From Bacillota bacterium (GTDB taxonomy: Bacteria; Bacillota; Bacilli; Alicyclobacillales; SLC66), in NCBI GenBank assembly GCA_021846285.1, contig JAJZCB010000015.1, positions 1 through 50,354 of the forward strand: a stretch of 50,354 bases of DNA, read 5' to 3'. Positions within the stretch are counted from its first letter, which is position 1. The number at the start of each line of letters is the position of its first letter. The notes under the pieces are model-generated. The model had not been told where the DNA came from. It saw only the letters and a list, made by a program, of their open reading frames with translations, and did not search any database. The position numbers and the translations under genes are program-made. Of the stretch, positions 30,894-50,354 are shown piece after piece.

Positions 30894-30900
30894 AATCGCT

Positions 30901-31602
30901 TCACACCGCACCCTCACCGTTAAATTTGTAGCCCGCTCCGCGAATCGTTACAATATACTTGGGAATGGAAGGGTCTGGTTCGATCTTTTTTCTTAAATTA
31001 CTGATGTGAACCATAACCGTGCGCGCATCACCCAAAGCAGGCGAGTTCCAGATATGGTGAAACAGATCCTCCGGTCGAAAAACCCGATCGGGGTTCTGGG
31101 CCATCAACATAAGAATTTGAAATTCCTTGGCTGATAACGTGACCTTGGCACGAGGCGTAGATACCATAAAACACCCTTCATCAATCTCCAGATCTGCAAT
31201 TCGAATCAGAGAGCCCGGTTGCCCCTGTTTTGCCGAAAGTCCCTTATAGCGGCGCAGTTGCGCCTTGACACGGGCAACCAATTCGCTGGGACTGAACGGT
31301 TTCGTCAAATAATCGTCCCCTCCAAGGGAAAGACCGAGGATCTTATCCGATTCGGCGGATTTCGCGCTCATAAAGAGTATAGGGATATCCGTATATTTTC
31401 TTATCTCCTGACACAACTCAAATCCACTTGGACCAGGCAACATGATGTCGAGAAGCACCAGATCAACGGACCCTTCCTGTAAAATATCAATGGCTTTCCA
31501 GTCATGGGCCGTCAGAACCTCAAAATCATGCCTATACAAATAGAGAGATACCAGTTCGGTAATCTCGTCGTCGTCCTCGACAATAAGCACTGTATCTTTC
31601 AT
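30901..31602 (-). CDS. OmpR-family response regulator
   Basis: 233 residues. Receiver: TVLIVEDDDEITELV, phosphoacceptor Asp52 in LVLLDIMLPGPSG, conserved Ser/Lys in ILFMSAKSAES, then KPFSPSELVARV. The C-terminal winged helix (SAKEFQILMLMAQNPDRVFR; HISNLRKKIEPDPSIPKYIV; TIRGAGYKF) is of OmpR/PhoB type. It is immediately upstream of the giant histidine kinase gene and is its obvious partner. The 118 bp before it are very AT-rich, with a TTGACA at 31691-31686 that may be a -35 element. Confidence 0.92.
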   Translation of the reverse strand: MKDTVLIVEDDDEITELVSLYLYRHDFEVLTAHDWKAIDILQEGSVDLVLLDIMLPGPSGFELCQEIRKYTDIPILFMSAKSAESDKILGLSLGGDDYLTKPFSPSELVARVKAQLRRYKGLSAKQGQPGSLIRIADLEIDEGCFMVSTPRAKVTLSAKEFQILMLMAQNPDRVFRPEDLFHHIWNSPALGDARTVMVHISNLRKKIEPDPSIPKYIVTIRGAGYKFNGEGAV

Positions 31603-31720: not shown

Positions 31721-32698
31721 TCATCCCAGCGACGATTTAACATCACCGACAAGTTTACCAACCATTTCCTCCGAGTATATGGAAAATCCCTTGCCTCCCT
31801 GATGCTTGACTGAATACATGGCCTTATCGGCAGCCTGAATCAAAGTCTCAAAGTCCCTGCCATCCTGAGGAAAGATGCTGACCCCCAAACTGGCCGATAC
31901 CCGAAATTGCCGACTGTCGATGGAGTACTCGACATCAAGGGATCGGCTTAACCGCTGGACAACGTTCGACACCACATTTCCATTGCGAATGATGTCAGTC
32001 AGGACCACGACAAATTCATCACCTCCGACGCGAACCACGACATCCTCCATACGAATGCGTCGTTTCAGCCGCTGCACAATCACGCGGAGAACGGAATCGC
32101 CGCACTCATGACCATACATGTCGTTGACCGTCTTAAACCCATCCAGGTCAATATAAATAAGTGCGAACGCTTCGCCAAATTCCTTCTGCAGACCGACACG
32201 ATACCGTTCCAGAAATAACCGATTCAGCGCGCCCGTCAATGGATCGTGTATGGCCATGCGTTCCAGTTCGATAACATAGGCCAACATATCCGCCGCAAGC
32301 TGCATGGAATGCAACTCCGTTCTATTGAAATCGTAGGGCTCAACATTGGCAGTGCACAGAGTTCCGTAAAGCGTGCCATCCTGGAGTAGAATTGGCACTC
32401 CCATATAAGCGCCGATTCGTTGAGCAGCCAATGACTCGCCTTTCACATGGTTGGCGGTATCTGCGATGACCAGCGACTGAGTCTGGTGCATAAGTTCAAA
32501 ACCTGTGAGTTCTGAGAGACGCAGCACCGTCAGATCATTGGAGTTCTCGTCTTCTTTGTGGAACAGTCTCACCAGTGTAAAGAATCCGTCTTGCATCGTA
32601 ACAATAAAGAATGTGGATGTAGGAATGATGTTGCTCAGTTGACTCAGGCTGTCGCGCAACGATCGTGTAAAATGGCTCCATGGCGCTATTCTCGGCAT
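31721..32698 (-). CDS. GAF-GGDEF diguanylate cyclase
   Basis: 325 residues. GAF-like domain at about 15-145 (IADTANHVKGESL; YMGVPILLQDGTLYGTLCT) and a GGDEF domain at about 148-320. The active site GGDEF is intact (225-229), and RMED at 216-219 is a standard inhibitory I-site five residues before it. HDPLTGALNRLFLERY and IDLDGFKTVNDMYGHECGD are canonical. It should make c-di-GMP from GTP under control of the GAF ligand, with product inhibition. It lies 26 bp after manC and has an AGGAGGTG ribosome site, so it is probably co-expressed with polysaccharide genes. Confidence 0.92.
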   Translation of the reverse strand: MPRIAPWSHFTRSLRDSLSQLSNIIPTSTFFIVTMQDGFFTLVRLFHKEDENSNDLTVLRLSELTGFELMHQTQSLVIADTANHVKGESLAAQRIGAYMGVPILLQDGTLYGTLCTANVEPYDFNRTELHSMQLAADMLAYVIELERMAIHDPLTGALNRLFLERYRVGLQKEFGEAFALIYIDLDGFKTVNDMYGHECGDSVLRVIVQRLKRRIRMEDVVVRVGGDEFVVVLTDIIRNGNVVSNVVQRLSRSLDVEYSIDSRQFRVSASLGVSIFPQDGRDFETLIQAADKAMYSVKHQGGKGFSIYSEEMVGKLVGDVKSSLG

Positions 32699-32724
32699 TT
32701 CCTACACCTCCTATCGATTGCCTA

Positions 32725-34092
32725 CTATCGCTCAACCACGCCACAACAACACTCCAAAATGTCATCCCACTCCTGGAACCGCCGTATGCAATCTGCTTCC
32801 GACAGATCGGATCCCCGTTGCACTTCAATCGCCACGAGATCTTCCTCAGCCAGAAATGCGTGCCATTGACCGGGGCGTATTCGAATCACATCTCCCGCTG
32901 TCACCATCGCCAGACCGCCATCAAGCGCCAACAGTCCCCGGCCGCGAATGACCGTCCAGACCTCCTCGCGAAACAGATGCTGATGATAGCTCATATTCGC
33001 CCCCGACCGCAAAGTGTTATGCCGTGTCAGAACCTCTGTTCCGTCCGCCAACGCGCAGCGGTCCAAGACGCGATAACTGCCCCAACGGCGTTCCTCAAAC
33101 ATGGGCCGTCCAGCAAACGGCGCCACCAGCCCCTTGATATCTCCTGCATGCTCTTTGTCCGCCACCAGGATGCCATCTGGACTTGCCACCACAATCGTGT
33201 TGCGAAGCCCTGCCGCCACGACCGGAATATTCAACTCGTTAATCACATGGGACTCTTCACAGCGTTCGGAGACGCCGTATCCTATAAAGTCATTTCTCAG
33301 TTCAGGAGCCAACACAGGCCAGGTGCCCATATCCTTCCATGCGCCGTCGTAAGGAGTCACCACGATTGATCGGCTCGATTCAAGCACTTCGTAATCGAAA
33401 CTGCGCTTGGGCATCCGATCAAACTGTTCAACCATGTCCCGATAGGTGCTTGGATATCCCCGTTCGCGCAGAAGGTTGATCAGATAGGACGAGCGAAAGC
33501 AGAACACCCCGCAATTCCAGAGCGCTCCTTCCGCAACCAAACGAGCCGCGCGATCACGATCAGGCTTTTCCGTAAATGAAACGACACGTCGATAGGGAGC
33601 CTGGCTGTCCGGCCGTTCGACGCGGATATAGCCAAACTGACTCGACGGACACAGCGGGCGAACACCGAGAAGAGCCAGATCAGCGCCGGAGTCGACAAGT
33701 GGCCGTTGCAGTTCCAGGATCGCTTGGAAGAAGGACTTGTCTACATACTGATCGACAGGCGCCACGGCCACCACTTCGTCCACCAGAGTCTCCTGCGCCA
33801 GATACAGCGTTGCCAAGGCGATGGCGGGAAACGTGTCCATGCGCTGCGGCTCCACGATCACACTCACATCGCCCAATTGGGAGTAGATAATATCCGTTTG
33901 CGCATGTGACGCACAGACATAAACGTCTTCCAATGCATCCAAGTCCGTGAGTTGCGACCAGACTCGCTCCAACATTGAAACCATGTCACCCTGCTCGTTC
34001 TGCAGCACCCGCAGGAACTGTTTCGATCGCACATCGTTCGACAGAGGCCACAGTCGTTTACCCGATCCACCCGAGAGAAGCACCAGTTTCAC
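32725..34092 (-). CDS. manC: Mannose-1-phosphate guanylyltransferase / phosphomannose isomerase
   Basis: About 455 residues. N-terminal nucleotidyltransferase (LVLLSGGSGKRLWPLSND; VAPVDQYV; FTEKPDRDRA) and a C-terminal type-II phosphomannose isomerase cupin (FEERRWGSYRVLDR; SGANMSYHQHLFREEVWTVI). It makes GDP-mannose, the donor for mannosylated exopolysaccharide. GTG at 34092 is chosen because it overlaps the glycosyltransferase stop as GTGA; the frame opens at 34107. It sits between the GT2-GtrA gene and the diguanylate cyclase gene. Confidence 0.88.
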   Translation of the reverse strand: MKLVLLSGGSGKRLWPLSNDVRSKQFLRVLQNEQGDMVSMLERVWSQLTDLDALEDVYVCASHAQTDIIYSQLGDVSVIVEPQRMDTFPAIALATLYLAQETLVDEVVAVAPVDQYVDKSFFQAILELQRPLVDSGADLALLGVRPLCPSSQFGYIRVERPDSQAPYRRVVSFTEKPDRDRAARLVAEGALWNCGVFCFRSSYLINLLRERGYPSTYRDMVEQFDRMPKRSFDYEVLESSRSIVVTPYDGAWKDMGTWPVLAPELRNDFIGYGVSERCEESHVINELNIPVVAAGLRNTIVVASPDGILVADKEHAGDIKGLVAPFAGRPMFEERRWGSYRVLDRCALADGTEVLTRHNTLRSGANMSYHQHLFREEVWTVIRGRGLLALDGGLAMVTAGDVIRIRPGQWHAFLAEEDLVAIEVQRGSDLSEADCIRRFQEWDDILECCCGVVER

Positions 34093-35273
34093 TCTTCTAC
34101 CACCCACTTTCTATCTGTTAACGCGCTTCGCATTGATCGTATTGCACCTAGAGAATCACTGTCAGCGGAACTGGAAGCACAGGACAGCGCGACCTCAATC
34201 TCTCGATACTCCGTTTTCCACGTCCAAACATTATTGACGTAGAAATTCCAGATCATCGCTACAAAAATTCCTATTCCGTTCGCAATGAAATAATCCACAT
34301 GCATCCCATACGCGAGCATCGAGAGCACCATGGTGTCGATGCCAATTCCGGTTAGAGAGGTGGCCACATATTTGCCGAATCGTTTTAGCCCCGGAGTGGA
34401 TCTGGAATCATGCCAAGTCAACCTGTCATTCAAAGCGAAGTTCGACACCATCGCAACAGCGCCAGCCAGAACGCCCGCCTGCCAGAAATCCATGTGTAGT
34501 TTTACCAGACCAACGTAGACCATCATATTAACAAGGACACCTGAAATTCCAACAGCAGCAAAAACATACTTCCGCCGATCTTCGGAACTGGACACGACCA
34601 ATTTGAAAATGTGCTTGAGATAGTTCCATTGTTCTCGAAGCGACATGTTTGACGACCCGGCTATCCTGGGCTGAAAACGGTACGGAATCTCCACAATCCG
34701 AGAATAATTTCCATGTACAAGGATTTCAATTAATACTTTCCACCCGATGGGCTGCAACCGCACGTTTTCCACTACACTCCGCCGCAAGAGAAAGAACCCA
34801 CTGGTCGGATCTGTCACGCTGCGTACTCGCTTTAGTGTCGCCTGGCCAATAACTCGAGCGACCCAGGAAATCAACTTCCGAGACGGAGATAATCCCCCGT
34901 CGTCACCACCCGGCACAAAGCGACTGGGGATAACTATGTCGCAACCGATTTCCGCCGCGGCCATCATAGCCTTCAAAAGTTCCGGCGGATGCTGCATATC
35001 AGAGTCCATGACTGCAATGAGTTCCCCACGGGCAAGTTCGAATCCACGCACAACCGCAGTTCCCAGACTTCGCTCATGCTCACGATGCTCATACCGTACC
35101 CAGGGAAACTCCCCACAAAGATGCTCAAGTGACTCCACAGACTCTTTCGAGGTGCTGTCATCCACAAAGATCAGTTCGAACTCGAGCGGATGAAGAACTT
35201 TAATCAACGTTTCTGCGACGACGGCAGGATTGTTCCCCTCGTTAAACGTTGGCACAACAATACTGATTTTCAT
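34089..35273 (-). CDS. GT2 glycosyltransferase (dolichol-phosphate-mannose-synthase type) fused to GtrA
   Basis: About 394 residues. GT2 domain: ISIVVPTFNEGNN, FVDDSTSKES, DxD in VMDSDMQHPPELL, and DPTSGFFLLRRSVV. A GtrA-like four-helix membrane domain follows (about 235-365; FAAVGISGVLVNMMVYVG, WNFYVNNVWTWK). Such fusions load mannose or another sugar from GDP-sugar onto a polyprenyl phosphate and present it across the membrane. ManC directly downstream would supply GDP-mannose. ATG at 35273 has GAGGTGATC upstream. The product may feed the GT-C enzyme at 39986. Confidence 0.87.
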   Translation of the reverse strand: MKISIVVPTFNEGNNPAVVAETLIKVLHPLEFELIFVDDSTSKESVESLEHLCGEFPWVRYEHREHERSLGTAVVRGFELARGELIAVMDSDMQHPPELLKAMMAAAEIGCDIVIPSRFVPGGDDGGLSPSRKLISWVARVIGQATLKRVRSVTDPTSGFFLLRRSVVENVRLQPIGWKVLIEILVHGNYSRIVEIPYRFQPRIAGSSNMSLREQWNYLKHIFKLVVSSSEDRRKYVFAAVGISGVLVNMMVYVGLVKLHMDFWQAGVLAGAVAMVSNFALNDRLTWHDSRSTPGLKRFGKYVATSLTGIGIDTMVLSMLAYGMHVDYFIANGIGIFVAMIWNFYVNNVWTWKTEYREIEVALSCASSSADSDSLGAIRSMRSALTDRKWVVEE

Positions 35274-35417
35274 ACTCAGATCACCTCGTAACATCAGTAG
35301 TCGCGATGGCTTTAAATACCAGTTGCTTCAATCGCGCATCTTCTGAATACAAAGCTAGATCCTTGGTCACAAGGAGTCAATGAGTGGAAAATCGGTTGTT
35401 AAAGGCGCGTAATCGAT

Positions 35418-35457
35418 AAAAAAGTGAGACCTCCGCGCAAAAACGAGAACGGAGATC
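35418..35457 (-). terminator. Rho-independent terminator
   Basis: On the minus strand GATCTCCG pairs with CGGAGGTC (one wobble) and TCACTTTTTT follows. It is the second hairpin after the glycoside hydrolase gene and backs up the weaker one at 35521-35548. The rest of the 285-bp gap to the GT2-GtrA start (35274-35557) shows no gene. Confidence 0.65.
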
Positions 35458-35520
35458 CCTGCTTCTTTATGTCTTAAAAGTTTTTTTATATGCAGAAAAT
35501 AACAAATGATCTCTACAAAC

Positions 35521-35548
35521 CCGGCATCTCCGACTCCGAGACGGCCGG
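35521..35548 (-). terminator. Terminator-like hairpin after the 512-aa glycoside hydrolase
   Basis: CCGG...CCGG hairpin with inner CGTCTC/GAGATG pairing, only a short T run on the minus strand. Its sequence closely matches the terminator at 37193-37231 (29 of 34 positions). Confidence 0.5.
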
Positions 35549-35557
35549 CTCGCGGCG

Positions 35558-37096
35558 CTATTTTCCCTGATGTCCTGTAGGAACCAGAACGACAGTGGTG
35601 AGCGAGTAGGGCGCCACTGTCTGCCTGAATGCAGTGCCATGCATGGAACTTTTGGCAGATGTGATGCTCATACTGTTTTCCCCGTAGGTGTAGACAGTTG
35701 CCGAATTGACATGGCTCTGCTCACCTGCCACATTCACGTGGACATTGTAACTATTGTGCGGACTGTCATTAATAATCAGCACCGCAAGTTTGCCGCCGGC
35801 ACGCCGCGCAGCGTACACCTGAACCATGCTCTGGTTCGAGACGGCCCGCACGAGTCTCGCCCCGGGACTGACGATGTGAGTCAACATTTGCAATCCGTAA
35901 AATGTAGGAAACGGCGCATTGAGCGGCGGTTCCGAGATTCCGTTCTGCGTATTTCCATAAGACAGCACGCCGTAGTCGCCGTACTGTGCTGTGCCATAGA
36001 GAGAGGAACTGTGATTGGTTCCCAACATCTCGCCGTTGTGCAGGTCCCACCAGTCGATGTTTGCCGCACCGTTATCAAGCCAGGTCATATAGTCGTTCGC
36101 CAGAAACAGTGCATTCACGAGCGACACCGTCTGTTTGCCTGGAGCGGAATAGACGGAGTTGGTCTCCGTGACCATGATCTTTACGTGCTTCGCGTTTGAT
36201 CCGCAGTATTGATTGATCTCCTTGCGCAACGTGCTCACCATATACGGAATGGTGTTGGTCGAAGCGAGCAGTTCGCTGTCCGATTCATGACCAGGCGCTT
36301 GAGCGTACCAGTGCACATCCACGAAGTTGGCTGCCTTGCCCACCTGTGACAGCACACCCGAGTTCCAGTCTGGAGTTGCGCCAAACGGCCAGTTTCCCGG
36401 CGCCGTCAGCACCACGCCGACTTTGATCTTTGGATCGACTTTCTTCATCGCCATGATGAAAGCGAGTGCATTCTTGCCGTACACTGTCGGACCGAGATGC
36501 TTGTGCAGGTCAGTCTCCCATTTCGTTTTATAGGTGCCGTTGCCGTACACTTCATTTCCAATTTCCCAGTATTTGATATTATAGTGATGCGTGACATTGG
36601 CGTACTTCACCCATGCGGCTGCATTGGCAGGCGTCCCGCCGCCCGTATAGGTGAAATTGGACCCGTAGTTGACGGTGATCATGGCCTGTGCGCCCGATTG
36701 GTCTACAACGCTCATAAACGACTTGAAATCTGTCGCAGGGCGCCACTCTTTACTCGGACTCGCCGCCAGTTCAGTGTTCGTTTTCCAATCATACCCATCC
36801 GCAAACAATCCGCCAGGATAACGCATGATTTTGATGCCCGCCCGGCGCATCAAACTCGGAACGGCCGGATTGGTCAATTGCGCATCCCACGCCGCAGTGT
36901 TGATACCCACAGCAGTGCTCGGCACCGTGCTCAGCACCGACCGCGTGTTCACCGTCACGTTGACCTCCGGATGCGTGGACATTAGCGAGGTGATGCGCGC
37001 AGAGTTCGCCGTGGCAGCGAATGCGCTGATCGAACCACCCACCATCATCGCAAGTGCTACAGCAGCCGCTTCACGGACAAATCTCCTATGCAACAT
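35558..37096 (-). CDS. Secreted clan-A glycoside hydrolase (arabinofuranosidase/GH51-39-like)
   Basis: About 512 residues. Signal peptide: MLHRRFVREAAAVALAMMVG with an AFA cleavage region. A TIM-barrel hydrolase follows, with acid/base Glu182 (YWEIGNEVYGNG) and nucleophile Glu311 (IMVTETNSVYS); RYPGGLFADGYDWK resembles GH51/GH39 entry motifs. A C-terminal beta-domain ends the protein. Such enzymes release arabinose or similar sugars from polysaccharide. ATG at 37096 is preferred for TGGAGGTG upstream; the frame opens at 37153. It is a distant paralog of the next gene. A role in trimming the cell's own polysaccharide is possible but unproven. Confidence 0.78.
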   Translation of the reverse strand: MLHRRFVREAAAVALAMMVGGSISAFAATANSARITSLMSTHPEVNVTVNTRSVLSTVPSTAVGINTAAWDAQLTNPAVPSLMRRAGIKIMRYPGGLFADGYDWKTNTELAASPSKEWRPATDFKSFMSVVDQSGAQAMITVNYGSNFTYTGGGTPANAAAWVKYANVTHHYNIKYWEIGNEVYGNGTYKTKWETDLHKHLGPTVYGKNALAFIMAMKKVDPKIKVGVVLTAPGNWPFGATPDWNSGVLSQVGKAANFVDVHWYAQAPGHESDSELLASTNTIPYMVSTLRKEINQYCGSNAKHVKIMVTETNSVYSAPGKQTVSLVNALFLANDYMTWLDNGAANIDWWDLHNGEMLGTNHSSSLYGTAQYGDYGVLSYGNTQNGISEPPLNAPFPTFYGLQMLTHIVSPGARLVRAVSNQSMVQVYAARRAGGKLAVLIINDSPHNSYNVHVNVAGEQSHVNSATVYTYGENSMSITSAKSSMHGTAFRQTVAPYSLTTVVLVPTGHQGK

Positions 37097-37192
37097 CCAT
37101 ACACCTCCAGACAATGTAATCATCATTGCGGAACATGAGGCATGCAAAGACAATTACATAACGAAAAAATGCTGTCAAGCGAGTAGGCGATT

Positions 37193-37231
37193 AAAAAAAC
37201 CCGGCATCTTTGACTGCGAGACGACCGGGTT
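37193..37231 (-). terminator. Rho-independent terminator after the TIG-domain hydrolase
   Basis: On the minus strand AACCCGG (37231-37225) pairs with CCGGGTT (37204-37198), followed by TTTTT. The loop carries CGTCTCG-AGTC, shared with the hairpin at 35521-35548. It separates the two hydrolase genes into different transcription units. Confidence 0.78.
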
Positions 37232-37258
37232 GACCGAAGCGGATTTCCCTATGAAATA

Positions 37259-39577
37259 TTAACCTACGTTAACCTGCACGGAAGCCGTGGAAACTCCCTG
37301 TGAACTTACAATGCGAATGGTCGCTGGCCCACTTAGAACACCCACGCCTGGTGCATTCTTCCCATCCGGCACTAAGAAAGTAACCTGAGTCGCAGACCAT
37401 CCCGTGATCTTTACTCCATAAACATTCCCAGGAGCCCCCCAACTGGTTCCTCCTTGCATAAGTTGAACATATCCGGCTGATGATCCGAATCCTGTTCCTG
37501 CAACACTGACAGACTCTCCAGGTGTAATCGTCGTAGGCGAGATAGTGGATATGATCGCCCCATTCGCGGAGACGGTGATCGACTGCGGTTGTGATGAAGC
37601 ACCCGTGGCATTGACGACCTGAAGCGTAGCGGTACCGCTCGGCAGCGGTTCGCCGGATCCGTTCATTCCGTTTGGCACCTGGAATCGTATCCGGTCATTT
37701 GTCCAGGAAGAGAAGTTGATGTGGTACCAGTTCCCAGGAGCCCCCCAGTTTACTCCATTGTCTGCTATGTGGAGGTAGGAACCATTCTTGTTCGAACCAA
37801 AATTCACTCCTTTCAAAGTAACCCATTCGCCAGGATACAGATTCGATGCGGACACCTGTTCAAGAGTAACGGGGGGCGCCGATGACACCTGCACATTGGC
37901 CGCCGATGAAATTGTCTGATCAGCCGTGACGACCGACAGGGTAGCCGAACGGCCAGCGCTTAGCGCACTGTAGAAATGACCATTGGGCGCCGAAGTATTA
38001 TTCGGTACGACAAATGTTATCTTACTGGGACTCCAGGAAAGTGTATCAACAGCATTGAAGTTTCCCGGCAGCCCCCAGGAAACCGTGGCCGAGGTCGAAG
38101 TGCCCCAAACGAGCGGGCCTTGAGACAGATGAATGTATCCCTTCCGTTTCCCGAAGCCCGCCCCCTGAATAGTCACTGTTTCACCAGCATATAACGACTG
38201 TGGAACGTGAATTAACGCTGGCAGAGACAATGGAATTCCATTGGATGGAATACTTGGTTTCTGATAAGCTGTCATGCCCACTACCGACTGCACGCTGGCC
38301 GAGACCTCGACCATAGAATCGGAAGGAACAACAACCGTGTTCGACCCATTGTACACGTATGATTGAGTTGACCCCGTGGTGTTAATGAAGAACGCTTTAC
38401 CAACTGAGCCCTGCACCTCTGCTGCAAAACCGTTAGCGCCGGTCCATGCAGTCAATGAGGAGCCAGAACCGACAGCCTGCATAAATGACGCGACAGCCTG
38501 ACCGGATGGATACAGTTGATTCATGGCCAACGAACCCAGCGCGCCATTTGCCACCAGACCAAACGTACCGTTGTTTCCAGGTGCATCTGCACCGCCGTCA
38601 AACGACCACACAAAGACCTTGTGCGCCCCTGCCGCTCTTAAGGCGACCAGCGATTCGACCATCGCCGCTCCGTACGTGGAAGTCAGCGATAGACTACCAG
38701 GCGTTGACTCGGGGTTCCATTCTGTAACCCAAACTGTTATACGGGATGCCACCGCGGGTGGCACGTTGGCGGCAATCTGTTGATCTGCCGTGGCCATGAG
38801 CTTCTCGACGGCGGACGGCAAACCCTGAAGCAGTGTGGATGGACTCACAGAAGAACTGAATGGATACGCATGCACCGACAGAAAATTGATATACGGCGCA
38901 TCAAGTCGAAGAACGTCTTGATCCCACTCCAGTGCGTGCGCAGAGAGACCATCCTCAAAACTCACGCCTATCTTGACAGCGGGCAGGACAGTGTGAATCG
39001 CTTGCGCTATAACCGCTGCATTTTTCGCGTACGCAAGAGCGGACTTGTTCTTGTGAAGGTTGTGAGCAAAATCCCACTGTCCGTATTCCTCGGAGCCGAT
39101 TACTATGGCTGACACGGGTATATGGTGTTGCAAAATATAATTGGCAAGCTGCGTTGCATCCTGTGCTGTGCCCCCACCTGTCCATCCAGGCGCCTGATCG
39201 TAATTGTATATATATAGACCCGTCTGCCCAGTGGCTGTCAATAGTTTACCCCAGGCATTCAGGCTCTCTGGACTACTGCTCGGATTGACTGGATTCTGCG
39301 GGTTGGCAACCGCCATGTTCGTCTGCCAATTCCAGTTAACGGAGTTTGGAAACTGTTGCATACCAACGCCGAGTGATTCCAGCGCCGATGTGGCGCCGAC
39401 CGTGGTAATCTGCGAATCCCATGTAAACGTGTTGACCCCGAAATCGGATCTGGAAACGGGTACGCCTGGCACATTAGCTTGACCAAATGCCTGCGCTGCA
39501 GGTGTGAAACACAATAAGGCGATGAGACTACCGACCATACTTGTCGCCAGAGTGGTCGACAATAAGCTCTTTTGCAC
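37259..39577 (-). CDS. Secreted glycoside-hydrolase-like protein with three IPT/TIG domains, riboswitch-controlled
   Basis: About 772 residues from GTG at 39577 (AGGAGGACACACA upstream). Signal peptide ending near AAQAFGQA. The catalytic-like domain (about 35-330) has VIGSEEYGQW (Glu163) and ITVWVTEWNPES (Glu286), the two acids of clan-A glycosidases, then a beta-domain. Three IPT/TIG Ig-like repeats follow (about 450-560, 565-660, 665-772), each with GxxVTxxGxxFG and W(S/T)xxxIxFxVP-type motifs; WGAPGN recurs. TIG domains would hold it on a carbohydrate or cell surface. A c-di-GMP-type riboswitch with terminator precedes it. Substrate unknown. Confidence 0.77.
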   Translation of the reverse strand: MQKSLLSTTLATSMVGSLIALLCFTPAAQAFGQANVPGVPVSRSDFGVNTFTWDSQITTVGATSALESLGVGMQQFPNSVNWNWQTNMAVANPQNPVNPSSSPESLNAWGKLLTATGQTGLYIYNYDQAPGWTGGGTAQDATQLANYILQHHIPVSAIVIGSEEYGQWDFAHNLHKNKSALAYAKNAAVIAQAIHTVLPAVKIGVSFEDGLSAHALEWDQDVLRLDAPYINFLSVHAYPFSSSVSPSTLLQGLPSAVEKLMATADQQIAANVPPAVASRITVWVTEWNPESTPGSLSLTSTYGAAMVESLVALRAAGAHKVFVWSFDGGADAPGNNGTFGLVANGALGSLAMNQLYPSGQAVASFMQAVGSGSSLTAWTGANGFAAEVQGSVGKAFFINTTGSTQSYVYNGSNTVVVPSDSMVEVSASVQSVVGMTAYQKPSIPSNGIPLSLPALIHVPQSLYAGETVTIQGAGFGKRKGYIHLSQGPLVWGTSTSATVSWGLPGNFNAVDTLSWSPSKITFVVPNNTSAPNGHFYSALSAGRSATLSVVTADQTISSAANVQVSSAPPVTLEQVSASNLYPGEWVTLKGVNFGSNKNGSYLHIADNGVNWGAPGNWYHINFSSWTNDRIRFQVPNGMNGSGEPLPSGTATLQVVNATGASSQPQSITVSANGAIISTISPTTITPGESVSVAGTGFGSSAGYVQLMQGGTSWGAPGNVYGVKITGWSATQVTFLVPDGKNAPGVGVLSGPATIRIVSSQGVSTASVQVNVG

Positions 39578-39598
39578 TGTGTGTCCTCCTCTTGGGCA

Positions 39599-39629
39599 CA
39601 AAAAATACGGCAGAAATGTTCCTGCCGCG
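39599..39629 (-). terminator. Riboswitch expression-platform terminator
   Basis: On the minus strand CGGCAG (39627-39622) pairs with CTGCCG (39613-39608) around GAACATTT, followed by TATTTTTT. It ends about 10 bases before the Shine-Dalgarno. The first arm, extended to CGCGGCAG (39629-39622), can instead pair with CTGCCGCG (39656-39649) at the end of the aptamer, giving a mutually exclusive antiterminator. Confidence 0.8.
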
Positions 39630-39644
39630 GATTCAGCGCAAAAT

Positions 39645-39730
39645 AAAACGCGGCAGCTGGCTGGCCTAGCGCGTATGCGCCTTAGCCCCTCTAGTTTTGC
39701 GCCCCCGCCTTTCGACGAGTTTGCCTTTTA
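39645..39730 (-). promoter_or_regulatory. GEMM-type (c-di-GMP-I) riboswitch aptamer
   Basis: On the minus strand the order of conserved blocks is GGCAAAC, GTCGAAAGGC (GAAA tetraloop), GGGGGCGCAAAACTAGAGG, GGGCTAAGG, then CAGCCAGCTGCC. This matches the GEMM-I pattern (P1 arm, tetraloop helix, GACGCAAAGCC-like block, CUAAGG receptor, CAGCC end, P1 closing). P1 is GGCA (39725-39722) with TGCC (39655-39652). The G in GGCAAA fits c-di-GMP rather than the cGAMP-type variant. Ligand binding would hold TGCC in P1, free the downstream arm for the terminator, and turn the hydrolase gene off. Confidence 0.85.
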
Positions 39731-39882
39731 CACTCACATGCATCTTAACATTTCTGATATCTATCTGCAACTTTTTTACGCCGGGCCATCAATCATGCCG
39801 ACTCTCTTTTTTACCCATACCCACCAGACAAAACACAATAAAATTTCCTTTAACTTCACTTGCTAGTAGGCAAAACTCCTTG

Positions 39883-39910
39883 TTGTACAGCGCTTTTTCT
39901 TATCTATAGA
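39883..39910 (+). promoter_or_regulatory. Candidate sigma-A promoter for the GT-C gene
   Basis: TTGTAC (39883-39888) and TATAGA (39905-39910) are 16 bp apart, about 75 bp before the TTG start. The region 39731-39882 is AT-rich, shared with the divergent riboswitch promoter, and holds no gene. Confidence 0.4.
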
Positions 39911-39985
39911 AGTATCTTTGAATGTTGTGGAAAAACGTTCTATCGTATACATTCTTGCTATGGAACATAATTGGGAGGTATTGCT

Positions 39986-41653
39986 TTGTCCACAGTATGG
40001 AGTCGATCAGCAATACCCGTTAACGCGGCAATCGAAACGAATGAAACCAGAGAAGTGGCTAGTTACCCAAAGTGGGAGGGTCGCATACTCGCGCTTTTTG
40101 TACTCGCGCTTTCCTTGTTTGTCGGATATCAACTTGTCTTTCACTATCACATCGTCTATGGGGACGCGATGAGCCGTGCGCTGTCTGGGCTTTACACTGT
40201 GTTTCGTCCCAGTTTCCACTTGGCGGCTGTTGGGTTCCTATGGAATCCACTCCCGAGCCTGTTATCCATCCCGCTCGCTCTATTTCGCAGCCTTTGGCCA
40301 CCAATAACTGAATACGGATTTGCCGCCAATATCATTTCCTCCTGTTTCGCTGCAGTCGGCGTTTACCACTTGAACCGCATCCTGTGGCGCTTTGGCCTCG
40401 GACGCACGGCTCGTGTGCTCTGGTGTCTGTTGTATATCGCCAATCCTATGCTTCTTCTATATGGAGGCAACGGGATGACTGACGGAATGATGGTTGCGAT
40501 CTGCGTGGCGTGTGCGGATAACGTAATCGGCTACCTTCAGACTGAGGAATTGAATCGTTTGATCATAGCTGCAGTCTGGCTCGCGGCCGGTTTCATGGTG
40601 CGATACGAGAGTGTTCCGATCGGCGCAGCAATGGGTGTAGGCCTAGCGTTCTCAGTCTATCGCACAAACCGGAATTGGCGCAAAGCAGAGGCAATGCTTG
40701 TCACATTTTGGTTTCCCGTCGTCGCTGCCGGGATCACTTGGATCCTGCTCAACTGGATAATTATGCATAATCCTCTGTATTTCGCCTCATCCCGCTATAG
40801 CAACACGGTGCAGCTTACTTCCGGGTCATACAACACTCCGGCCGTCATGGCCGCCAAGCATCACCTGAGTGTAGCACTCTCTCAAGTCATTCACTTTTCC
40901 ATTCTTTTCTGGCCCTATATTCCCGCTGCGCTTGTTGTGCTTGCACTGCAGTTTCGCAGAAAGGAACATTCTGTTGGATTGCCAATCTTGTTGGGTTCAC
41001 TTGGCGCGCCCCTGCTGCAACTCATCATGCTATACGGTCACCGTTCGGCAGACTGGGCGCGGTTCTTCATCTATTACATCCCGTTCGGGTTCATGCTCTG
41101 CGGTTATCTTATGTCCGCCATTCCCCTGAAGTGGCGGCAATGGAGCGCCGCCGGCGCATGCGGGCTGCTCCTGTCGGCGGACGTCGTCACGTTCTCAACA
41201 CTCCAGAATCCCGTATGGGGGCACGGTGACCACTGGGTGGTCAGCAATGTTTCCCATAACATCGAATTTGGGAATTCGACAAAACAAGCAGTCCAAGGTG
41301 TTGGTATTTGGCCAACCATCATGGCGGGAAAAGAAGTTGCGAATTATATGGCCGCTCATCCAAAGATGCGGGTGTTGATATCCAGCTTCACCTCGTATGC
41401 AGTGATCCCATTGATTCACAATCCAGCGCAAATCGTGTTTACAGCCGACCCTAATTTCAAAGCCGTACTCGAAAATCCTCGTGGACGCGTCAGTGCGATT
41501 CTGGCGCCTCCAGTCAATAACTTAACCAAAGCGTCCGACGCCATCACCAGAACTTATCCATCTCTTTGGTCAGGAGGTATTCCCTGGACCAAATTCATTA
41601 AGCAGTTTCCTGGCGGCGATCGTCTCTATGCCGTTCTCCCAACCGCGCCGTGA
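39986..41653 (+). CDS. GT-C membrane glycosyltransferase, GT39/ArnT-like
   Basis: About 555 residues with 11-12 membrane helices. After the first helix comes VYGDAMSRALSGLY, carrying the acidic residue that GT-C enzymes use in the first extracytoplasmic loop. Later WNPLPSLLSIPLALF, YGGNGMTDGMMVAI and RYESVPIGAAMG follow the GT39 style. These enzymes transfer sugar from polyprenyl-phosphate on the outer face of the membrane. The GT2-GtrA protein could make the donor. Start: TTG at 39986, with GGGAGG about eight bases before; another TTG at 39971 precedes that site. Own promoter and terminator. Confidence 0.75.
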   Translation: MSTVWSRSAIPVNAAIETNETREVASYPKWEGRILALFVLALSLFVGYQLVFHYHIVYGDAMSRALSGLYTVFRPSFHLAAVGFLWNPLPSLLSIPLALFRSLWPPITEYGFAANIISSCFAAVGVYHLNRILWRFGLGRTARVLWCLLYIANPMLLLYGGNGMTDGMMVAICVACADNVIGYLQTEELNRLIIAAVWLAAGFMVRYESVPIGAAMGVGLAFSVYRTNRNWRKAEAMLVTFWFPVVAAGITWILLNWIIMHNPLYFASSRYSNTVQLTSGSYNTPAVMAAKHHLSVALSQVIHFSILFWPYIPAALVVLALQFRRKEHSVGLPILLGSLGAPLLQLIMLYGHRSADWARFFIYYIPFGFMLCGYLMSAIPLKWRQWSAAGACGLLLSADVVTFSTLQNPVWGHGDHWVVSNVSHNIEFGNSTKQAVQGVGIWPTIMAGKEVANYMAAHPKMRVLISSFTSYAVIPLIHNPAQIVFTADPNFKAVLENPRGRVSAILAPPVNNLTKASDAITRTYPSLWSGGIPWTKFIKQFPGGDRLYAVLPTAP

Positions 41654-41705
41654 CAGGAACCCGCTACGCATCTAGAAGGACCGATGCGTAGTGGGTTCCT
41701 GTTTA
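41654..41705 (+). terminator. Long Rho-independent terminator after the GT-C gene
   Basis: The arms 41654-41672 and 41683-41701 pair over 19 positions with one wobble, begin one base after the start of the stop codon region, and are followed by TTTATC. Ten-base loop. Confidence 0.8.
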
Positions 41706-42338
41706 TCAAACGTCTCGGCGGTGAACAGCAATGTCAGGTGGACGTGGATATGCGGCTAGCTCGGGGAATGGCAACTCCGCATCTTCAGATTCTAACGATT
41801 CGGTCAGCAGCGGCGGCTCCGCGGCAACCTTGCTCGGCTATGCCCGCTTGCCCACGACCGCCGCAATCGGGCAGAAACGGTTTACTGAAGTACCAGCGAT
41901 CCATGACCACCCATAGGTGACAGGGACTCTATGTCAGGGCCGGCTTCATTTTGACCCTTTTCGCCGGACTGCGACACAGGAGCAAGGGCAGGGCGAAACG
42001 ATTCCAGAGTGTATGCAAGACGGGAATGCCCCCGAGGCGGCTGATGGAAGACAGGGATTGAAACTGTGGTTGGAACAACGGGTCACGGGCTACACGGCCA
42101 TCGAGAGAAGATAGTCAGTTTAGGCGCCCTCGCCGCGATTGTTGCGAGTTTTTCCGTTTATCAAGAGAAACTAGCCGATTGTCATGCCTTGTTCAAAAAT
42201 TCTCGCCCCCAATTTCATACTTCAAGTGTGTTGCCGCAAGTGCCTGGGGCAGTGTGGTGCTATCGTTCGTATGACTGGACTTTTCGGGTAACCATAACCT
42301 AACACAAGGGGCGAAATTTGTTCAGTAGATAATGATCT
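41706..42338. other. Region of 630 bp without a supported gene
   Basis: Between the GT-C terminator and the stop of the MshEN glycosyltransferase gene, only short frames exist (65-78 codons), none with a good ribosome site. One, at 41731-41916, reads as Ser/Gly-rich and contains LPTTAA. A different frame further on gives LYVRAGFILTLFAGLRHRSK, a short hydrophobic-basic stretch. Together these could be a frameshifted, decayed surface-protein gene. I see no terminator for the GT2 gene and no known RNA. Confidence 0.35.
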
Positions 42339-44582
42339 CTATACTCCGACATTTTTAGCGTTCTTATCCAATATTAGATGATCGTTCGCCTTGACATTGG
42401 AGAGTCCATGCACTGTTTTCTCCCAGTACGAGGGTTTGAAAATCAACTGAACCAGCGCCTTATAAGAAGCGATCGACATAAACACCCAATAGATCGGGCT
42501 GAGAAGCGCCCACTTGGCGAGACTCCATCTTCCCGACTTCAAAACGCCAACGATATTTGCGTATGTAAAAGCGACGTTCCCTAAGAAAAGGCTTAAAGAG
42601 CCCAAGTAAAATATCCAGCCTGAGAACACGGCCATGAGAAACATGGGCCGAAACAGATACCACGAGAGCGTGAGCCCCCACAGAATGGGATTTAAGAGAA
42701 ACTGGAGAGCCGTTCCACCGATCGTCGCCTGAAATCCGAAGAAACCGATTGGCTTGAGTTCTTTCCATAGCCTTATAGGGTGACGCATATGCACCAGCCA
42801 AGTTTGCAAGTACCCCTTGACCCAGCGAGACCGCTGACGCATCCAGTTGACGAAGTCAGAATTGGCCTCTTCATAGGTGACAGAGTTCATGACGGCGGTA
42901 TGGTACCCTGTCTTATGCAATCTGACACCCAGATCCGCATCTTCTGTGACGTTAAAGGGGTCCCAGGCCCCCAACTCACGCAGTATCTCAGTTCGAAAGT
43001 GGTTGGAACTGCCGCCGAGTGGGATCGGCATCCGCATCGTGAAAAGCGCCGGCAGCATCAGTTCAAACCAGTTGGCGTACTCTGCGGTAAACCAGCGTGT
43101 CTGGATGTTTTGGTTCTCATTGTAATACGATAGCTTCGCCTGCACACAGGCCAGTTGATCATTTTCGTTTTGCCGAAATACGGTGATCGCCTTGAGCAAT
43201 TGATCTGGTTCCGGGATATCCTCCGCATCAAAAATGACAAGATACTCTCCACGCGCTTTGGTCAGGCCATAGTTGCAAGCCTTCGGCTTGGTTCGCGGTT
43301 CAGATGCGGGCACGATCACCAACTCGATGTAGTTTGGCAGACCGGCGTCGCGCGCCGCTGCGATCGTTTCCGTATCGTCCTCTTCAAGCAGAAACTTCAC
43401 ATCCAAGCGGTCCTTTGGATACTGCAAGCGCTTGATCGCCTCGGTTAAGGTGGGCAGAACGGCCGCTTCCCGGTAAAGTGGCACAAGAACAGTATATTCC
43501 GGCAACGAAGTGAGAGGGATGTTGTCGATATCTGCCTTAGTGATGATGAATTCGGCATCGCTGCCCGCCGACTTTTGCATCGCCCACAGTCTAAATATAC
43601 TGGTAACGCCGTAAAGTACTTCTACCAGTGCAGCCAACACGGTTCCAGTAACCAATGAGTTTAAGACAAAACCACCGGTTAATGCCAGGGCAATTCCAAT
43701 CAACCAGAACGCCTGCAGCCGTGATATTTGTTTGAAGGCACTATCTTCTGGACTCCGATTCAATAGCGACAGTCGGCTCTCTTCCTCGTGCTCCTTGCGA
43801 AATCGTAGATTCAGCGCCATCATGACATCACGGTAACCTGTGACAAATACCCGCACCCGGCGATTGGTCCGGGATTGCAACTGCACTAACGCCTCTTGAT
43901 CGTCTACGTCAACCATGGCAACCGTTATACTGTAATCATCCAGCGCCAGTGGAACGATCAGATGGCGAAACCAGAATCGCTCGTCAACGAGATTCCATGC
44001 CGCAAACAGAGCTGGATCGCAAAAAAGGGCTGCGGTGTTGTTTCCATTTAGGAGGTCTATCAGGGGCAGACCTCGTTGCATCGCAAAAGCCTCCGCAATA
44101 TCCCAGTGCGATGCGGATCCCCTATTCATCAAAACGGATCCAATCTTGATCTTTGTGTCTGCACTCCTCTGTTCCTGAAGGGCCGCCGAGAGTTCAGCGG
44201 GGGATATGCGTCCGCTGGCAATCAGGTATGCGCCAAGTCGCTCATCCGGCAATCCTGATAAGAGGCCATACACGCGATCCTGCGCATGAACCAAATCCTC
44301 TAGCTCCACCCTGCATAAAATGACCTTGCCTTCCACAAATTCCGTCACAGAGAGGGCAGAGGGGCTCTCCGTGTCCACCGCAGCGACAAAGATAAACTCA
44401 CCTGTCTGTTGAAAGGGGAGAACTTGCCCGTTGCGCGACATTTCTGCAGAGATCAGATGAGCCACCTTGAGTTCGACGGGGTCATACCAAACGGACTGCC
44501 CATTCAACTTGTATGGTCGGAGCGAGATAAATAATTTTCCGTCCAGCTCCGCTATACCGCGTTCGTCGGTATCCACACTCAT
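42339..44582 (-). CDS. Processive GT2 glycosyltransferase with N-terminal MshEN-like c-di-GMP domain
   Basis: 747 residues. The N-terminal 100-250 region is a GspE/MshE N-domain: ERLGAYLIASGRISPAEL plus LQEQ (about 114-138), then a second half, KIGSVLMNRGSASHWDIAEA with QRGLPLIDLL. The RLG...GxI...L...Q spacing is that of c-di-GMP-binding MshEN motifs. Membrane helices follow (about 290-335), then the GT2 catalytic core with FDAEDIPEPDQL, TEDADLGVRLHKTGY and QRSRWVKGYLQTW (Q/RxxRW), and C-terminal helices. Cellulose-synthase-like. NfrB of E. coli combines the same domains in a different order and is c-di-GMP-activated. Coupled by ATGA overlap to the upstream coiled-coil gene. Confidence 0.85.
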   Translation of the reverse strand: MSVDTDERGIAELDGKLFISLRPYKLNGQSVWYDPVELKVAHLISAEMSRNGQVLPFQQTGEFIFVAAVDTESPSALSVTEFVEGKVILCRVELEDLVHAQDRVYGLLSGLPDERLGAYLIASGRISPAELSAALQEQRSADTKIKIGSVLMNRGSASHWDIAEAFAMQRGLPLIDLLNGNNTAALFCDPALFAAWNLVDERFWFRHLIVPLALDDYSITVAMVDVDDQEALVQLQSRTNRRVRVFVTGYRDVMMALNLRFRKEHEEESRLSLLNRSPEDSAFKQISRLQAFWLIGIALALTGGFVLNSLVTGTVLAALVEVLYGVTSIFRLWAMQKSAGSDAEFIITKADIDNIPLTSLPEYTVLVPLYREAAVLPTLTEAIKRLQYPKDRLDVKFLLEEDDTETIAAARDAGLPNYIELVIVPASEPRTKPKACNYGLTKARGEYLVIFDAEDIPEPDQLLKAITVFRQNENDQLACVQAKLSYYNENQNIQTRWFTAEYANWFELMLPALFTMRMPIPLGGSSNHFRTEILRELGAWDPFNVTEDADLGVRLHKTGYHTAVMNSVTYEEANSDFVNWMRQRSRWVKGYLQTWLVHMRHPIRLWKELKPIGFFGFQATIGGTALQFLLNPILWGLTLSWYLFRPMFLMAVFSGWIFYLGSLSLFLGNVAFTYANIVGVLKSGRWSLAKWALLSPIYWVFMSIASYKALVQLIFKPSYWEKTVHGLSNVKANDHLILDKNAKNVGV

Positions 44583-45064
44583 GCCGATACTCCCCTCGGT
44601 GATACATGCACCAACTCATGATCCACCGCTATATCGCGCACGAGTGAATGAGCACGCAACCAACCGATAAACTTATTTCGATCATGAGCTTGACCGTCAA
44701 CGCGATAAAACCCATCGCGAAACACCCGAAACCTGACTGCCAGATGCGGTGAACCCTCTAAAGCATCAATCAATCCCGTAATGTGACCAATCGAATCCGT
44801 TGGTCCGACGATGACCGTTATCGATTCTCCCGCACCCGACATACTCACTGACTGAATGTGCTGACGGCGCATGGCCGCTACAGTGATGGCCAACTCTTCT
44901 CTTTGCGACTCTGCCTTCGCCAGTCGAAGTGTAAGTTCACTCACCTGCTGTTCCGCATCAGCCAGTTTCTGCTCGCAAATCCTCATTTTCTCATCAACAG
45001 AAGATTTCGCATACCCAAAAAATTGTCTTTCGAAACGATTTCTACGCACTTTGCTTCCTCCCAT
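44579..45064 (-). CDS. Coiled-coil protein with small C-terminal alpha/beta domain
   Basis: 161 residues. The opening RRNRFERQFFGYAKSSVDEK resembles the lipid-binding start of DivIVA/GpsB proteins. A coiled coil of about 50 residues follows (KLADAEQQVSELTLRLAKAE). The C-terminal 80 residues (ITVIVGPTDSIGHITGLIDA; VRFRVFRDGFYRVDG) suggest a ferredoxin-like fold. Family not recognised. The 4-bp overlap with the MshEN glycosyltransferase gene suggests that the products act together, perhaps localising the synthase. It starts 15 bp after the sorted-protein gene ends. Confidence 0.6.
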   Translation of the reverse strand: MGGSKVRRNRFERQFFGYAKSSVDEKMRICEQKLADAEQQVSELTLRLAKAESQREELAITVAAMRRQHIQSVSMSGAGESITVIVGPTDSIGHITGLIDALEGSPHLAVRFRVFRDGFYRVDGQAHDRNKFIGWLRAHSLVRDIAVDHELVHVSPRGVSA

Positions 45065-45079: not shown

Positions 45080-45637
45080 TTAATGTGGAACATTCACGCG
45101 ACGTCTGCGCACCACTTGCCACACGCCCAGCATCCCAAGCGGCAGAGCCGCCGCCAGCGGCGCCTCTGGCAATGTATCCACAAGCGGGCCAACGGTTTCC
45201 TGATAATATTTGGAGTTCGGAGCCGGAGATGTGTATGCCATGGACACGTTGACACTCACGGCGCGCCCGAAATTTGGCAACGGAATCTTGTACCTCACCG
45301 GATGCATCGAATACAGGACGCCTGTCTCCATAATCGGTGGAGTGTCCGAAGTGCCGATCGAGCCAATGGGAAAAACGGGCGACGCCACGGTAAACTCAAA
45401 CCGCAGAGTCTGAGGAGCTGTCAGTCCTTCTCCCTTGAGGACAGGAAAGTCCACGATAACGTATCGGGCACCCTTGTGTACGACAACCTTGCGAATCGCC
45501 GACGTCGCGTGTGCCGCGGTTGGAACGTTTGTCAGCAACGGTGGGTTGTTCGGAGAAGCTGCGAAGGTGGTCACCGTCATCGTCAGAGAAGCGAAGACCA
45601 ACCCGCCAAAGAGCAATGCTTTTTTCCCACCTGTCAT
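45080..45637 (-). CDS. Secreted protein with C-terminal LPEAP exosortase-type sorting signal
   Basis: 185 residues. Signal peptide (KKALLFGGLVFASLTMTVTT, FAA). Beta-rich middle: METGVLYSMHPVRYKIPLPN, VSMAYTSPAPNSKYYQETVG. C-terminal tripartite signal: DTLPEAPLAAALPLGMLGVW, a hydrophobic helix, and RRRR. This matches PEP-CTERM logic (Pro-Glu-x-Pro motif, helix, basic end). Same architecture and about half-identical sequence to the protein at 47642-48133. It lies between the exosortase gene and the coiled-coil/GT2 genes, same strand. Confidence 0.78.
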   Translation of the reverse strand: MTGGKKALLFGGLVFASLTMTVTTFAASPNNPPLLTNVPTAAHATSAIRKVVVHKGARYVIVDFPVLKGEGLTAPQTLRFEFTVASPVFPIGSIGTSDTPPIMETGVLYSMHPVRYKIPLPNFGRAVSVNVSMAYTSPAPNSKYYQETVGPLVDTLPEAPLAAALPLGMLGVWQVVRRRRVNVPH

Positions 45638-47425: not shown

Positions 47426-47492
47426 AAAAACCCTCCCGCATTTCTGCACACATCATACCAAGCGATTCACTGAAACGAGTTAAATTTTTCGC

Positions 47493-49356: not shown

Positions 49357-50354
49357 TCAGGCGTTCGTGGCGGGCGACGTTGAACCCGGCGCTGTGTTCC
49401 CTACAGTCTTCATGCTCAGACTGGCAAAGGTGCGCACGAAGAAGTCAAACGCCCGCAGATTGCGCCGTTCAGACGCGGTGAGCGCTGACAACGCGGACAG
49501 CGCTTGCGGCGCCGAACCACTCGCGCCATATTGTGACTTAAGCGCCAACGGCAGCACCGACGCCAGCGGGCTCGTGGCCTGCACCCCGTAGCGGACGGGC
49601 GTCATGAACTCCGCGCGGATGTACGCGTCGCGTCCTTTGTATTTCACGGCGTAGATGTACGCCACGTCTTCATATGCGTCACGGGAGTTGCTGCCCGCCG
49701 CGTTCGGCGGGAGTAAAACGGCGAAAGCTTGCGCCGTGACTCCCGGGCGAACGATAAAATTCTGGCGCCCCAAGACGCTGTAGCCGTGAAAGAGAAGGCA
49801 GTTATTAACACCGTAACTCTGCAGGGCACTGAGATTATACGTCCACCATTCCTCAGCCATCATATAGCGGCCCCGCCTATCAGTGTAGGCAAATGCCCTG
49901 CCATACGAACCGGGGCCCAGCACGCTGGCCTCGTCAAACGTGCCCAACACGCTGCGGTTGTATCCTGTCATCCGCGGCATCAGCAGTGAGAGGTTATTTG
50001 TATTGACGGAAATCGGCGTTCCGAACGATCCGGCGGCCCAGTTGTAGATGGGCCAGAGCAGCACAGTCAGCGCCAGCGCGCCCGCCATTGCCATGCCAAC
50101 GCGAATCCAGCCTGGAACAGGCAGGGATTTGGACGATTGAACCATCTTGCCGCGCACACCGATCACGTTGCCGACCAAGGCAAGAATACCAAGGGTGACG
50201 ATGAATAGAATCAGGCCCAGCACCGGATGCAGCGTGCCAAAGGTGAAATTGCTGCCCACCAGATGACCGGAGATCACCAGAATGATCAAACGCAGGAGAT
50301 TCATGACGACGGACATGACCGCCGCCAGACCGATAAGGATCAACTTCCTTACAA
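49357..50354 (-). CDS. Second exosortase with EpsI-like domain, 5' end outside window
   Basis: The frame is open to the window edge; 332 residues are visible and the catalytic Cys region lies outside. It has the Arg in SVVMNLLRLIILVISGHLVG and His in GTLHPVLGLILF, the last helix, then a C-terminal domain with EEWWTYNLSALQSYGVNNCL and LFHG. It aligns through its length with the exosortase at 45743-47425, including the conserved Asn-Cys-Leu-Leu-Phe-His-Gly. The tail is Ala/Ser-rich. It may serve the same or a different subset of PEVP proteins. The TTG at 50343 is not the true start, as codons continue beyond it. Confidence 0.82.
   Translation of the reverse strand, partial: VRKLILIGLAAVMSVVMNLLRLIILVISGHLVGSNFTFGTLHPVLGLILFIVTLGILALVGNVIGVRGKMVQSSKSLPVPGWIRVGMAMAGALALTVLLWPIYNWAAGSFGTPISVNTNNLSLLMPRMTGYNRSVLGTFDEASVLGPGSYGRAFAYTDRRGRYMMAEEWWTYNLSALQSYGVNNCLLFHGYSVLGRQNFIVRPGVTAQAFAVLLPPNAAGSNSRDAYEDVAYIYAVKYKGRDAYIRAEFMTPVRYGVQATSPLASVLPLALKSQYGASGSAPQALSALSALTASERRNLRAFDFFVRTFASLSMKTVGNTAPGSTSPATNA

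Follow-up and report, generated by a model that had tools for sequence, protein, structure and literature searches.

The stretch of DNA analysed in this study, hereafter the window, comprises 50,354 nucleotides of contig JAJZCB010000015.1 from a Bacillota bacterium of the Alicyclobacillales, and it probably carries a surface-polysaccharide locus that is controlled by cyclic diguanylate (c-di-GMP) with opposed outputs, one building the polymer and the other cutting it. The two arms are represented by a polysaccharide synthase that joins a family 2 glycosyltransferase (GT2) to an MshEN domain and by a secreted glycoside hydrolase (GH), here called GH_B, that lies behind a class I c-di-GMP riboswitch. 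Coordinates are window positions, gene domains were assigned with Pfam and RNAs with Rfam; G- and L-numbers denote related genomes and loci compared with the window, G000 being the window's own genome. All of the genes named by an earlier sequence-only reading (a GAF-GGDEF cyclase with intact I-site, ManC, GT2-GtrA, GT-C and MshEN-GT2 enzymes) were recovered by Pfam where that reading had placed them; it had left out a regulator and kinase pair, a second clan GH-A hydrolase, a coiled-coil gene, and exosortases with proteins that look sorted.

The riboswitch leader and the hydrolases

The aptamer (39649..39735, minus strand) matches the c-di-GMP-I covariance model of Rfam (RF01051) over its full length (1-87 of 87) with 75.5 bits against a gathering threshold of 35 (E 4e-13), and a chance match is excluded as its explanation. 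With a clan GH-A hydrolase gene directly behind it, the match bears out the proposal that a c-di-GMP-type riboswitch stands on a secreted hydrolase. The 3' strand of the aptamer, CUGCCGCG (39656-39649), forms the 5' arm of a putative antiterminator, pairing perfectly over 8 bp with CGCGGCAG (39629-39622), and this pairing was equalled in none of 1000 shuffles of the downstream sequence. Most of CGCGGCAG doubles as the 5' arm of an intrinsic terminator with a 9-bp stem (39607..39628, minus strand), followed by ATTTTTT. This switching strand (39622..39629, minus strand) therefore has two possible partners, the aptamer 3' strand and, for part of its length, the 3' arm of the terminator, and the antiterminator and terminator helices, competing through the aptamer's own 3' strand, are mutually exclusive. 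The UGCC at the end of the aptamer is part of its conserved core, and in published aptamer structures one cytosine within it contacts the ligand. Because the antiterminator uses this conserved strand, ligand binding and antitermination should exclude each other, and an OFF switch is therefore predicted, in which c-di-GMP would cause termination and leave the hydrolase off. The architecture of the leader thus lends support, as a prediction, to the earlier suggestion that high signal silences the hydrolase.

In G002, whose hydrolase is 83% identical, all of the switching bases are unchanged although the linkers vary, and the switching strand CGCGGCAG is kept in both G001 and G002. A terminator with its U tract is present behind the aptamer in G052, G040 and G010 also, and G004 and G008 have hairpins with poorer tracts there. 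Several observations weigh against the OFF assignment: a significant antiterminator was not found in G008, G004, G040 or L096, no clear terminator was seen in L096 and L103 (L096, which has no U tract, shows none after the aptamer), and class I switches can be ON, as is one in B. thuringiensis (PMC6366702). Because of that ON switch the OFF sign stays a prediction; in C. difficile, all seven functional class I switches are OFF (PMC6366702). Minimum-free-energy folding under a ligand-bound constraint left the structure unchanged, the downstream hairpin being part of the most stable fold each time. Such folding cannot decide the sign of the switch, which was judged instead by explicit competition between the helices. 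Six further c-di-GMP-I riboswitches occur in G000 (L001, L002, L004, L005, L006, L007); judging from translations read by eye, the genes behind them apparently encode sensor-kinase-like proteins, a small secreted protein, and LytR/CpsA/Psr-like, PAS-GGDEF and sigma-factor-like proteins.

The controlled gene, GH_B (37259..39577, minus strand), most likely starts at GTG 39577 behind GAGGAGG, the TTG start of the longest open reading frame lying upstream of that site. Its product has a signal peptide (identified by eye) and a predicted (beta/alpha)8 barrel of clan GH-A that resembles GH51, GH79 and GH39 folds (model pLDDT 74.6) and is followed by TIG domains; E163 and E286 are invariant in seven sequences, and the barrel, acid/base and nucleophile glutamates that define the clan are all found. 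Since one intrinsic terminator lies directly 3' of the gene (37198..37231, minus strand; 8-bp stem, 18-nt loop, TTTTT) and another between the hydrolases and the GT2-GtrA/ManC/cyclase operon (35426..35459, minus strand; 11-bp stem and T tract), the riboswitch probably governs GH_B alone, as a monocistronic unit. Control of the downstream ManC/cyclase operon by the riboswitch was largely rejected, given the intervening terminators and the arrangement in G002 and G004, where the hydrolase and ManC/cyclase units are differently oriented or apart, in agreement with separate units. A second secreted clan GH-A hydrolase, GH79/ArfA-like (35558..37153, minus strand; Glyco_hydro_79n 23.4 bits, ArfA model E 4.5e-12), was found only in G001 among the neighbourhoods searched. 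A near-repeat, GTCTCGCAGTCAAAGATGCCGGGTTT / GTCTCGGAGTCGGAGATGCCGGGTTT, occurs after both hydrolase genes (37198-37231 and about 35505-35560) and suggests a duplicated terminator region.

The comparison of gene content among relatives that had been put forward as a check indicates that the parts are co-inherited, the set of riboswitch, hydrolase and synthase recurring in several genera and in two distant metagenome-assembled genomes (MAGs). The riboswitch lies directly ahead of a hydrolase that adjoins the synthase in G008 and G052, directly ahead of a hydrolase separated from the synthase by the GT-C gene in G001 and G040, and ahead of a hydrolase near the ManC/cyclase operon in G002. In all five of these genomes the hydrolase is GH_B. 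In G004 and G010, which represent two genera, the riboswitch gene near the synthase or its operon partners is a GH92 of about 1130 residues, unrelated to GH_B; only linkage to the operon is visible in G010, where operon and synthase are on separate contigs. It is the sole GH92 gene in each of the two genomes, and GH92 was found nowhere else among the 11 genomes searched. GH92 is a family of exo-alpha-mannosidases, and because it substitutes for GH_B next to ManC it would point to mannose in the polymer. The riboswitch thus appears to track the position of the hydrolase even when the enzyme itself is replaced, and none of eight hydrolase paralogs located outside the locus, elsewhere in the order, carries one. 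In the two distant Bacillota MAGs (L096, L103), whose synthases are 42-44% identical, a c-di-GMP-I-GGC riboswitch immediately precedes a GH_B homolog, which here too has synthase, exosortase and GT-C genes as neighbours. In summary, a riboswitch-hydrolase pair stands beside the synthase in six genera and these two MAGs. Under uniform placement, using the riboswitch numbers of the genomes, the probability that 5 or more of 8 genera have a riboswitch no more than 10 kb from the synthase is about 3e-6, a value that is optimistic, as is the 4e-4 given below for the cyclase, since related genomes are not independent.

Synthase, cyclase operon and neighbouring genes

The synthase (42339..44582, minus strand) comprises an N-terminal MshEN domain, a cellulose synthase-like GT2 domain and C-terminal membrane helices. 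GT2 signatures are present (DAED 452, TED 546, QRSRW 583), and the structural model (mean pLDDT 77.8) has a GT2 fold near those of BcsA, hyaluronan synthase and the archaeal mannosyltransferase PcManGT. A cellulose-synthase label was rejected (62 bits against 699 for the CelA equivalog), and the nearest named cultured match, with the window's own and very near records excluded, is Sulfobacillus harzensis at 48%. The MshEN domain scores 61.7 bits against a cutoff of 23.1 (PF05157), its motif pair occupying residues 115-169 (44076..44240, minus strand). Binding of c-di-GMP by such domains has been tied to glycines 11, 18, 40 and 47 and glutamines 32 and 61 in MshE numbering (PMC5013675), and all six are present in the window synthase. 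Furthermore, the contact residues G11, L25, Q32, G40 and Q61 do not vary among 15 orthologs, the most distant of which is 41% identical, and the predicted helices fit the MshEN_N bundle. Motif I follows the RLGxx..LxxxLxxQ pattern except at position 19. The arginine found there, as in the non-binder XpsE, counts against binding, as do a motif II that reads KIG..IAEAFAMQ (R38K, L39I, L54I, L58F), a spacer of 7 residues in place of 5, and a score of 33.2 bits against a cutoff of 38 for the NCBIfam c-di-GMP motif model NF053729; the exact tandem of RLGxx..LxxxLxxQ with a 5-residue spacer is thus not present. A 7-residue spacer is also found in the solved PilB (5tsg), and distant synthase orthologs have the canonical 5. 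On the conserved residues, binding of c-di-GMP is likely, not certain, and by analogy with NfrB of E. coli it would probably activate the synthase. The N-terminal 110 residues of the protein look like a second, degenerate MshEN domain (PF05157, 24.7 bits over residues 20-105), a stretch that is absent in distant orthologs.

The synthase has orthologs in two other genomes of the genus, in three further genomes of the family and in several genomes from a second family of the same order. Among close orthologs, the coiled-coil, GT-C and exosortase genes accompany the synthase almost everywhere, with the coiled-coil gene directly upstream of it in nearly all; in more distant phyla it is mainly the GT-C gene that is still found beside it. 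The small coiled-coil protein (44579..45064, minus strand), whose gene overlaps the synthase start, is therefore a conserved partner. Judged by eye, its N-terminal sequence FFGYAKSSVDEKM, which is FGYDRSEVE in relatives, looks DivIVA-like, and no Pfam match to DivIVA was obtained. The GT-C gene (39971..41653, plus strand), divergent from the riboswitch hydrolase, encodes a PMT_2-like membrane glycosyltransferase (PMT_2 E 3e-4, below gathering).

On the minus strand, the GAF-GGDEF diguanylate cyclase (31721..32698; Pfam GAF and GGDEF, GGDEF 139 bits) is preceded by genes for a GT2 fused to a GtrA/DPMS membrane domain, resembling polyprenyl-phosphate sugar synthases (34089..35294; Glycos_transf_2 and GtrA_DPMS_TM), and for ManC, a mannose-1-phosphate guanylyltransferase that would supply GDP-mannose (32725..34107; NTP_transferase and MannoseP_isomer). 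It is followed by an OmpR-type response regulator (30901..31602; Response_reg and Trans_reg_C) and, as the last gene, a 1673-residue STAND histidine kinase with Ser-Thr kinase-like and GAF domains (25896..30917; HATPase_c, HisKA, AAA_16, GAF and Pkinase). A minus-strand terminator search found no terminator between GT2-GtrA, ManC, cyclase and regulator, and together with the kinase these genes probably form an operon separate from the hydrolase unit. The cyclase motif reads RMED-VVVRV-GGDEF, with GGDEF intact and the I-site RxxD five residues ahead of it, as in product-inhibited diguanylate cyclases, and the I-site is intact in all five orthologs checked. Within the window's family, each of the six genomes with a synthase also has a cyclase ortholog, as does 1 of the 12 genomes that have no synthase (Fisher p 4e-4 counted by genome and 0.04 by genus, both made optimistic by relatedness). 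The orthologs are full-length and 62-94% identical, except that a contig end truncates the G008 copy in part. G001, G002, G004 and G010 keep the gene order GT2-GtrA, ManC, cyclase, regulator, kinase, and G008 and G013 that of cyclase, regulator and kinase; a single contig carries all of the elements in G004.

It is also important to consider what speaks against a dedicated role for this cyclase. In the second family (G052, G040) the locus retains the regulator and kinase, not the cyclase, and nowhere outside the window's family is the cyclase in the locus, including the distant genomes that have the riboswitch-hydrolase-synthase set. The genome, in addition, gives 18 GGDEF hits, of which this cyclase is one, and 8 EAL hits, and because of the 18 it is only a candidate for the local source of c-di-GMP and not proven dedicated; beside the synthase, the exosortase is found more constantly than the cyclase. 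The description of the locus as tied to c-di-GMP at three levels consequently holds within the window's family, while more widely two levels are found and the locus is without the cyclase. Likewise, the idea of a dedicated circuit is upheld by the co-inheritance of the parts and weakened by a cyclase that is locus-bound in one family only, in a genome with so many GGDEF and EAL hits.

Beyond the coiled-coil gene lie a secreted protein with a C-terminal sorting-like signal (45080..45637, minus strand; LPEAP, transmembrane stretch, RRRR) and an exosortase with Cys, Arg and His motifs (VCSGADS, NWLRL, LHPVLG) and a C-terminal extension (45743..47449, minus strand; Exosortase_EpsH 69.5 bits). The exosortase exceeds the cutoff of the general signature TIGR04178 (41.9 bits against 23) and reaches the cutoff of no named Xrt family. 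Between 45080 and 50343 there are three small secreted proteins whose C-termini consist of LPE(A/V)P or MPEVP, then a hydrophobic segment and an arginine-rich tail, RRRR in those with LPE(A/V)P. A second, partial exosortase (49357-50343) lies where the window ends. In G001, part of another exosortase gene (L045:1-535) occurs between synthase and GT-C; a decayed counterpart between these genes in the window was looked for and not found.

Proposed mechanism and competing explanations

In the proposed mechanism, ManC would make GDP-mannose, and the GT2-GtrA and GT-C enzymes would probably use polyprenyl phosphate to move mannose, or a sugar related to it, through the membrane. The MshEN-GT2 synthase and its coiled-coil partner would then polymerise and extrude the main chain. 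The messenger, for which the GAF-GGDEF enzyme, co-operonic with ManC and the regulator/kinase pair, would be one source, would be sensed twice, by the MshEN domain of the synthase, probably activating it, and by the class I riboswitch in the hydrolase mRNA leader. There, bound ligand would hold the aptamer 3' strand, preventing the antiterminator and allowing the terminator to form, and would thus turn off an enzyme that may attack the locus's own polymer. High c-di-GMP would accordingly favour building, and low c-di-GMP trimming or release.

There are several potential alternatives to this mechanism. It is possible, if unlikely, that both arms act in the same direction, with the hydrolase serving maturation or export and being switched ON, or merely tuned in level, by c-di-GMP. 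Biosynthetic loci often hold a hydrolase needed for synthesis, and BcsZ (cellulose) and PslG (Psl) are maturation or export hydrolases of this kind; some class I switches are ON (PMC6366702), and L096 and L103 have no clear terminator. However, in the window the conserved 3' strand of the aptamer is itself an arm of the antiterminator, so that bound ligand should be incompatible with read-through, the aptamers of G052, G040 and G010 likewise have terminators behind them, and the loci of G031, G045 and G050 keep the synthase and have no hydrolase, so that the enzyme is not needed for synthesis. We consider it quite unlikely that the hydrolase instead serves foraging on foreign polysaccharides and is shut off when cells are sessile, its proximity to the synthase reflecting shared regulation and not a shared polymer. 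Such a role would suit an enzyme that, to the detriment of the proposed mechanism, has no assigned family or substrate (Pfam GH39 15.5 bits against a cutoff of 26), as the GH51-, GH79- and GH39-like enzymes of clan GH-A act on many plant and microbial glycans, but it does not account for the substitution by GH92 exactly where ManC and a mannosyltransferase-like pathway occur and nowhere else in the genomes searched.

The MshEN domain might also be degenerate and only structural, in which case c-di-GMP would act on the locus through the riboswitch alone. The substitutions in motif II and the NCBIfam score below cutoff are in keeping with this, yet the invariance of the contact glycines and glutamines in the 15 orthologs, the Pfam score well above gathering and the predicted helices make it improbable. 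Finally, a genome with 7 riboswitches, 18 GGDEF hits and 8 EAL hits could bring such common parts together by coincidence; recurrence in several genera and distant MAGs, paralogs that have no riboswitch and the chance value of about 3e-6 render this very unlikely. The mechanism with opposed outputs is preferred.

Significance and relation to known systems

If the proposed mechanism is true, a single messenger acts through two different types of receptor, encoded next to each other, to set both how an extracellular polymer is made and how it is broken down, and the adhesin/protease logic of C. difficile applies to polysaccharides too. That GH92 takes the place of GH_B behind the riboswitch suggests that the position of a riboswitch can tell which secreted hydrolases of uncultured Bacillota serve matrix dispersal, and it also hints at polymer composition (mannose). 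A more far-reaching version, which we regard as tentative and on balance somewhat doubtful, is a self-contained Bacillota matrix switch with its own messenger source in a cyclase linked to the kinase and regulator, protein sensing in the synthase, RNA sensing on the hydrolase and exosortase-sorted proteins anchored to the polymer; the riboswitch would be the conserved element of the dispersal arm, and the hydrolase would be exchangeable between unrelated families matched to the polymer. In the part of the open PMC literature covered, no paper was found that joins c-di-GMP riboswitches, glycoside hydrolases and exopolysaccharide. The individual parts are of known kinds, and it is their combination that is new.

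Like BcsA, the window synthase has a processive GT2 fold with membrane helices and a c-di-GMP input (here predicted); unlike BcsA, which c-di-GMP activates through PilZ, it has MshEN, it falls below the CelA cutoff, and no BcsB was seen in the neighbourhood. The exosortase region resembles the PEP-CTERM/exosortase (EpsH) systems in having a Cys/Arg/His exosortase and PEP-like C-terminal signals next to exopolysaccharide genes, and differs from those of the 2006 founding survey, which found none in Firmicutes (PMC1569441), in belonging to Bacillota and in scoring below all named Xrt cutoffs. The closest known synthase is NfrB of E. coli, a c-di-GMP-activated GT2-MshEN exopolysaccharide synthase of the phage N4 receptor system (PMC8669469). 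Both join a GT2 with D, DxD, TED and QxxRW to MshEN, and a locally acting cyclase is proposed for both. In the window synthase, however, the order is reversed, with MshEN N-terminal (NF008411 equivalog 31.9 bits against 1170), GT-C and coiled-coil partners are found where no NfrA-like outer-membrane partner was seen in the window neighbourhood, and the locus has GDP-mannose genes in place of WecB/UDP-ManNAc. The closest logic is that of ZmpI/PPEP-1 and the adhesins CD2831 and CD3246 in C. difficile, where a class I OFF riboswitch silences the protease and class II ON riboswitches switch the adhesins (PMC6366702). In both cases a class I OFF riboswitch (predicted in the window) silences a secreted remover of a surface component that c-di-GMP promotes; whereas the C. 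difficile pair consists of a protease and proteins, both switched by RNA, the window pairs a glycosidase with a polysaccharide whose building side is predicted to be sensed by protein.

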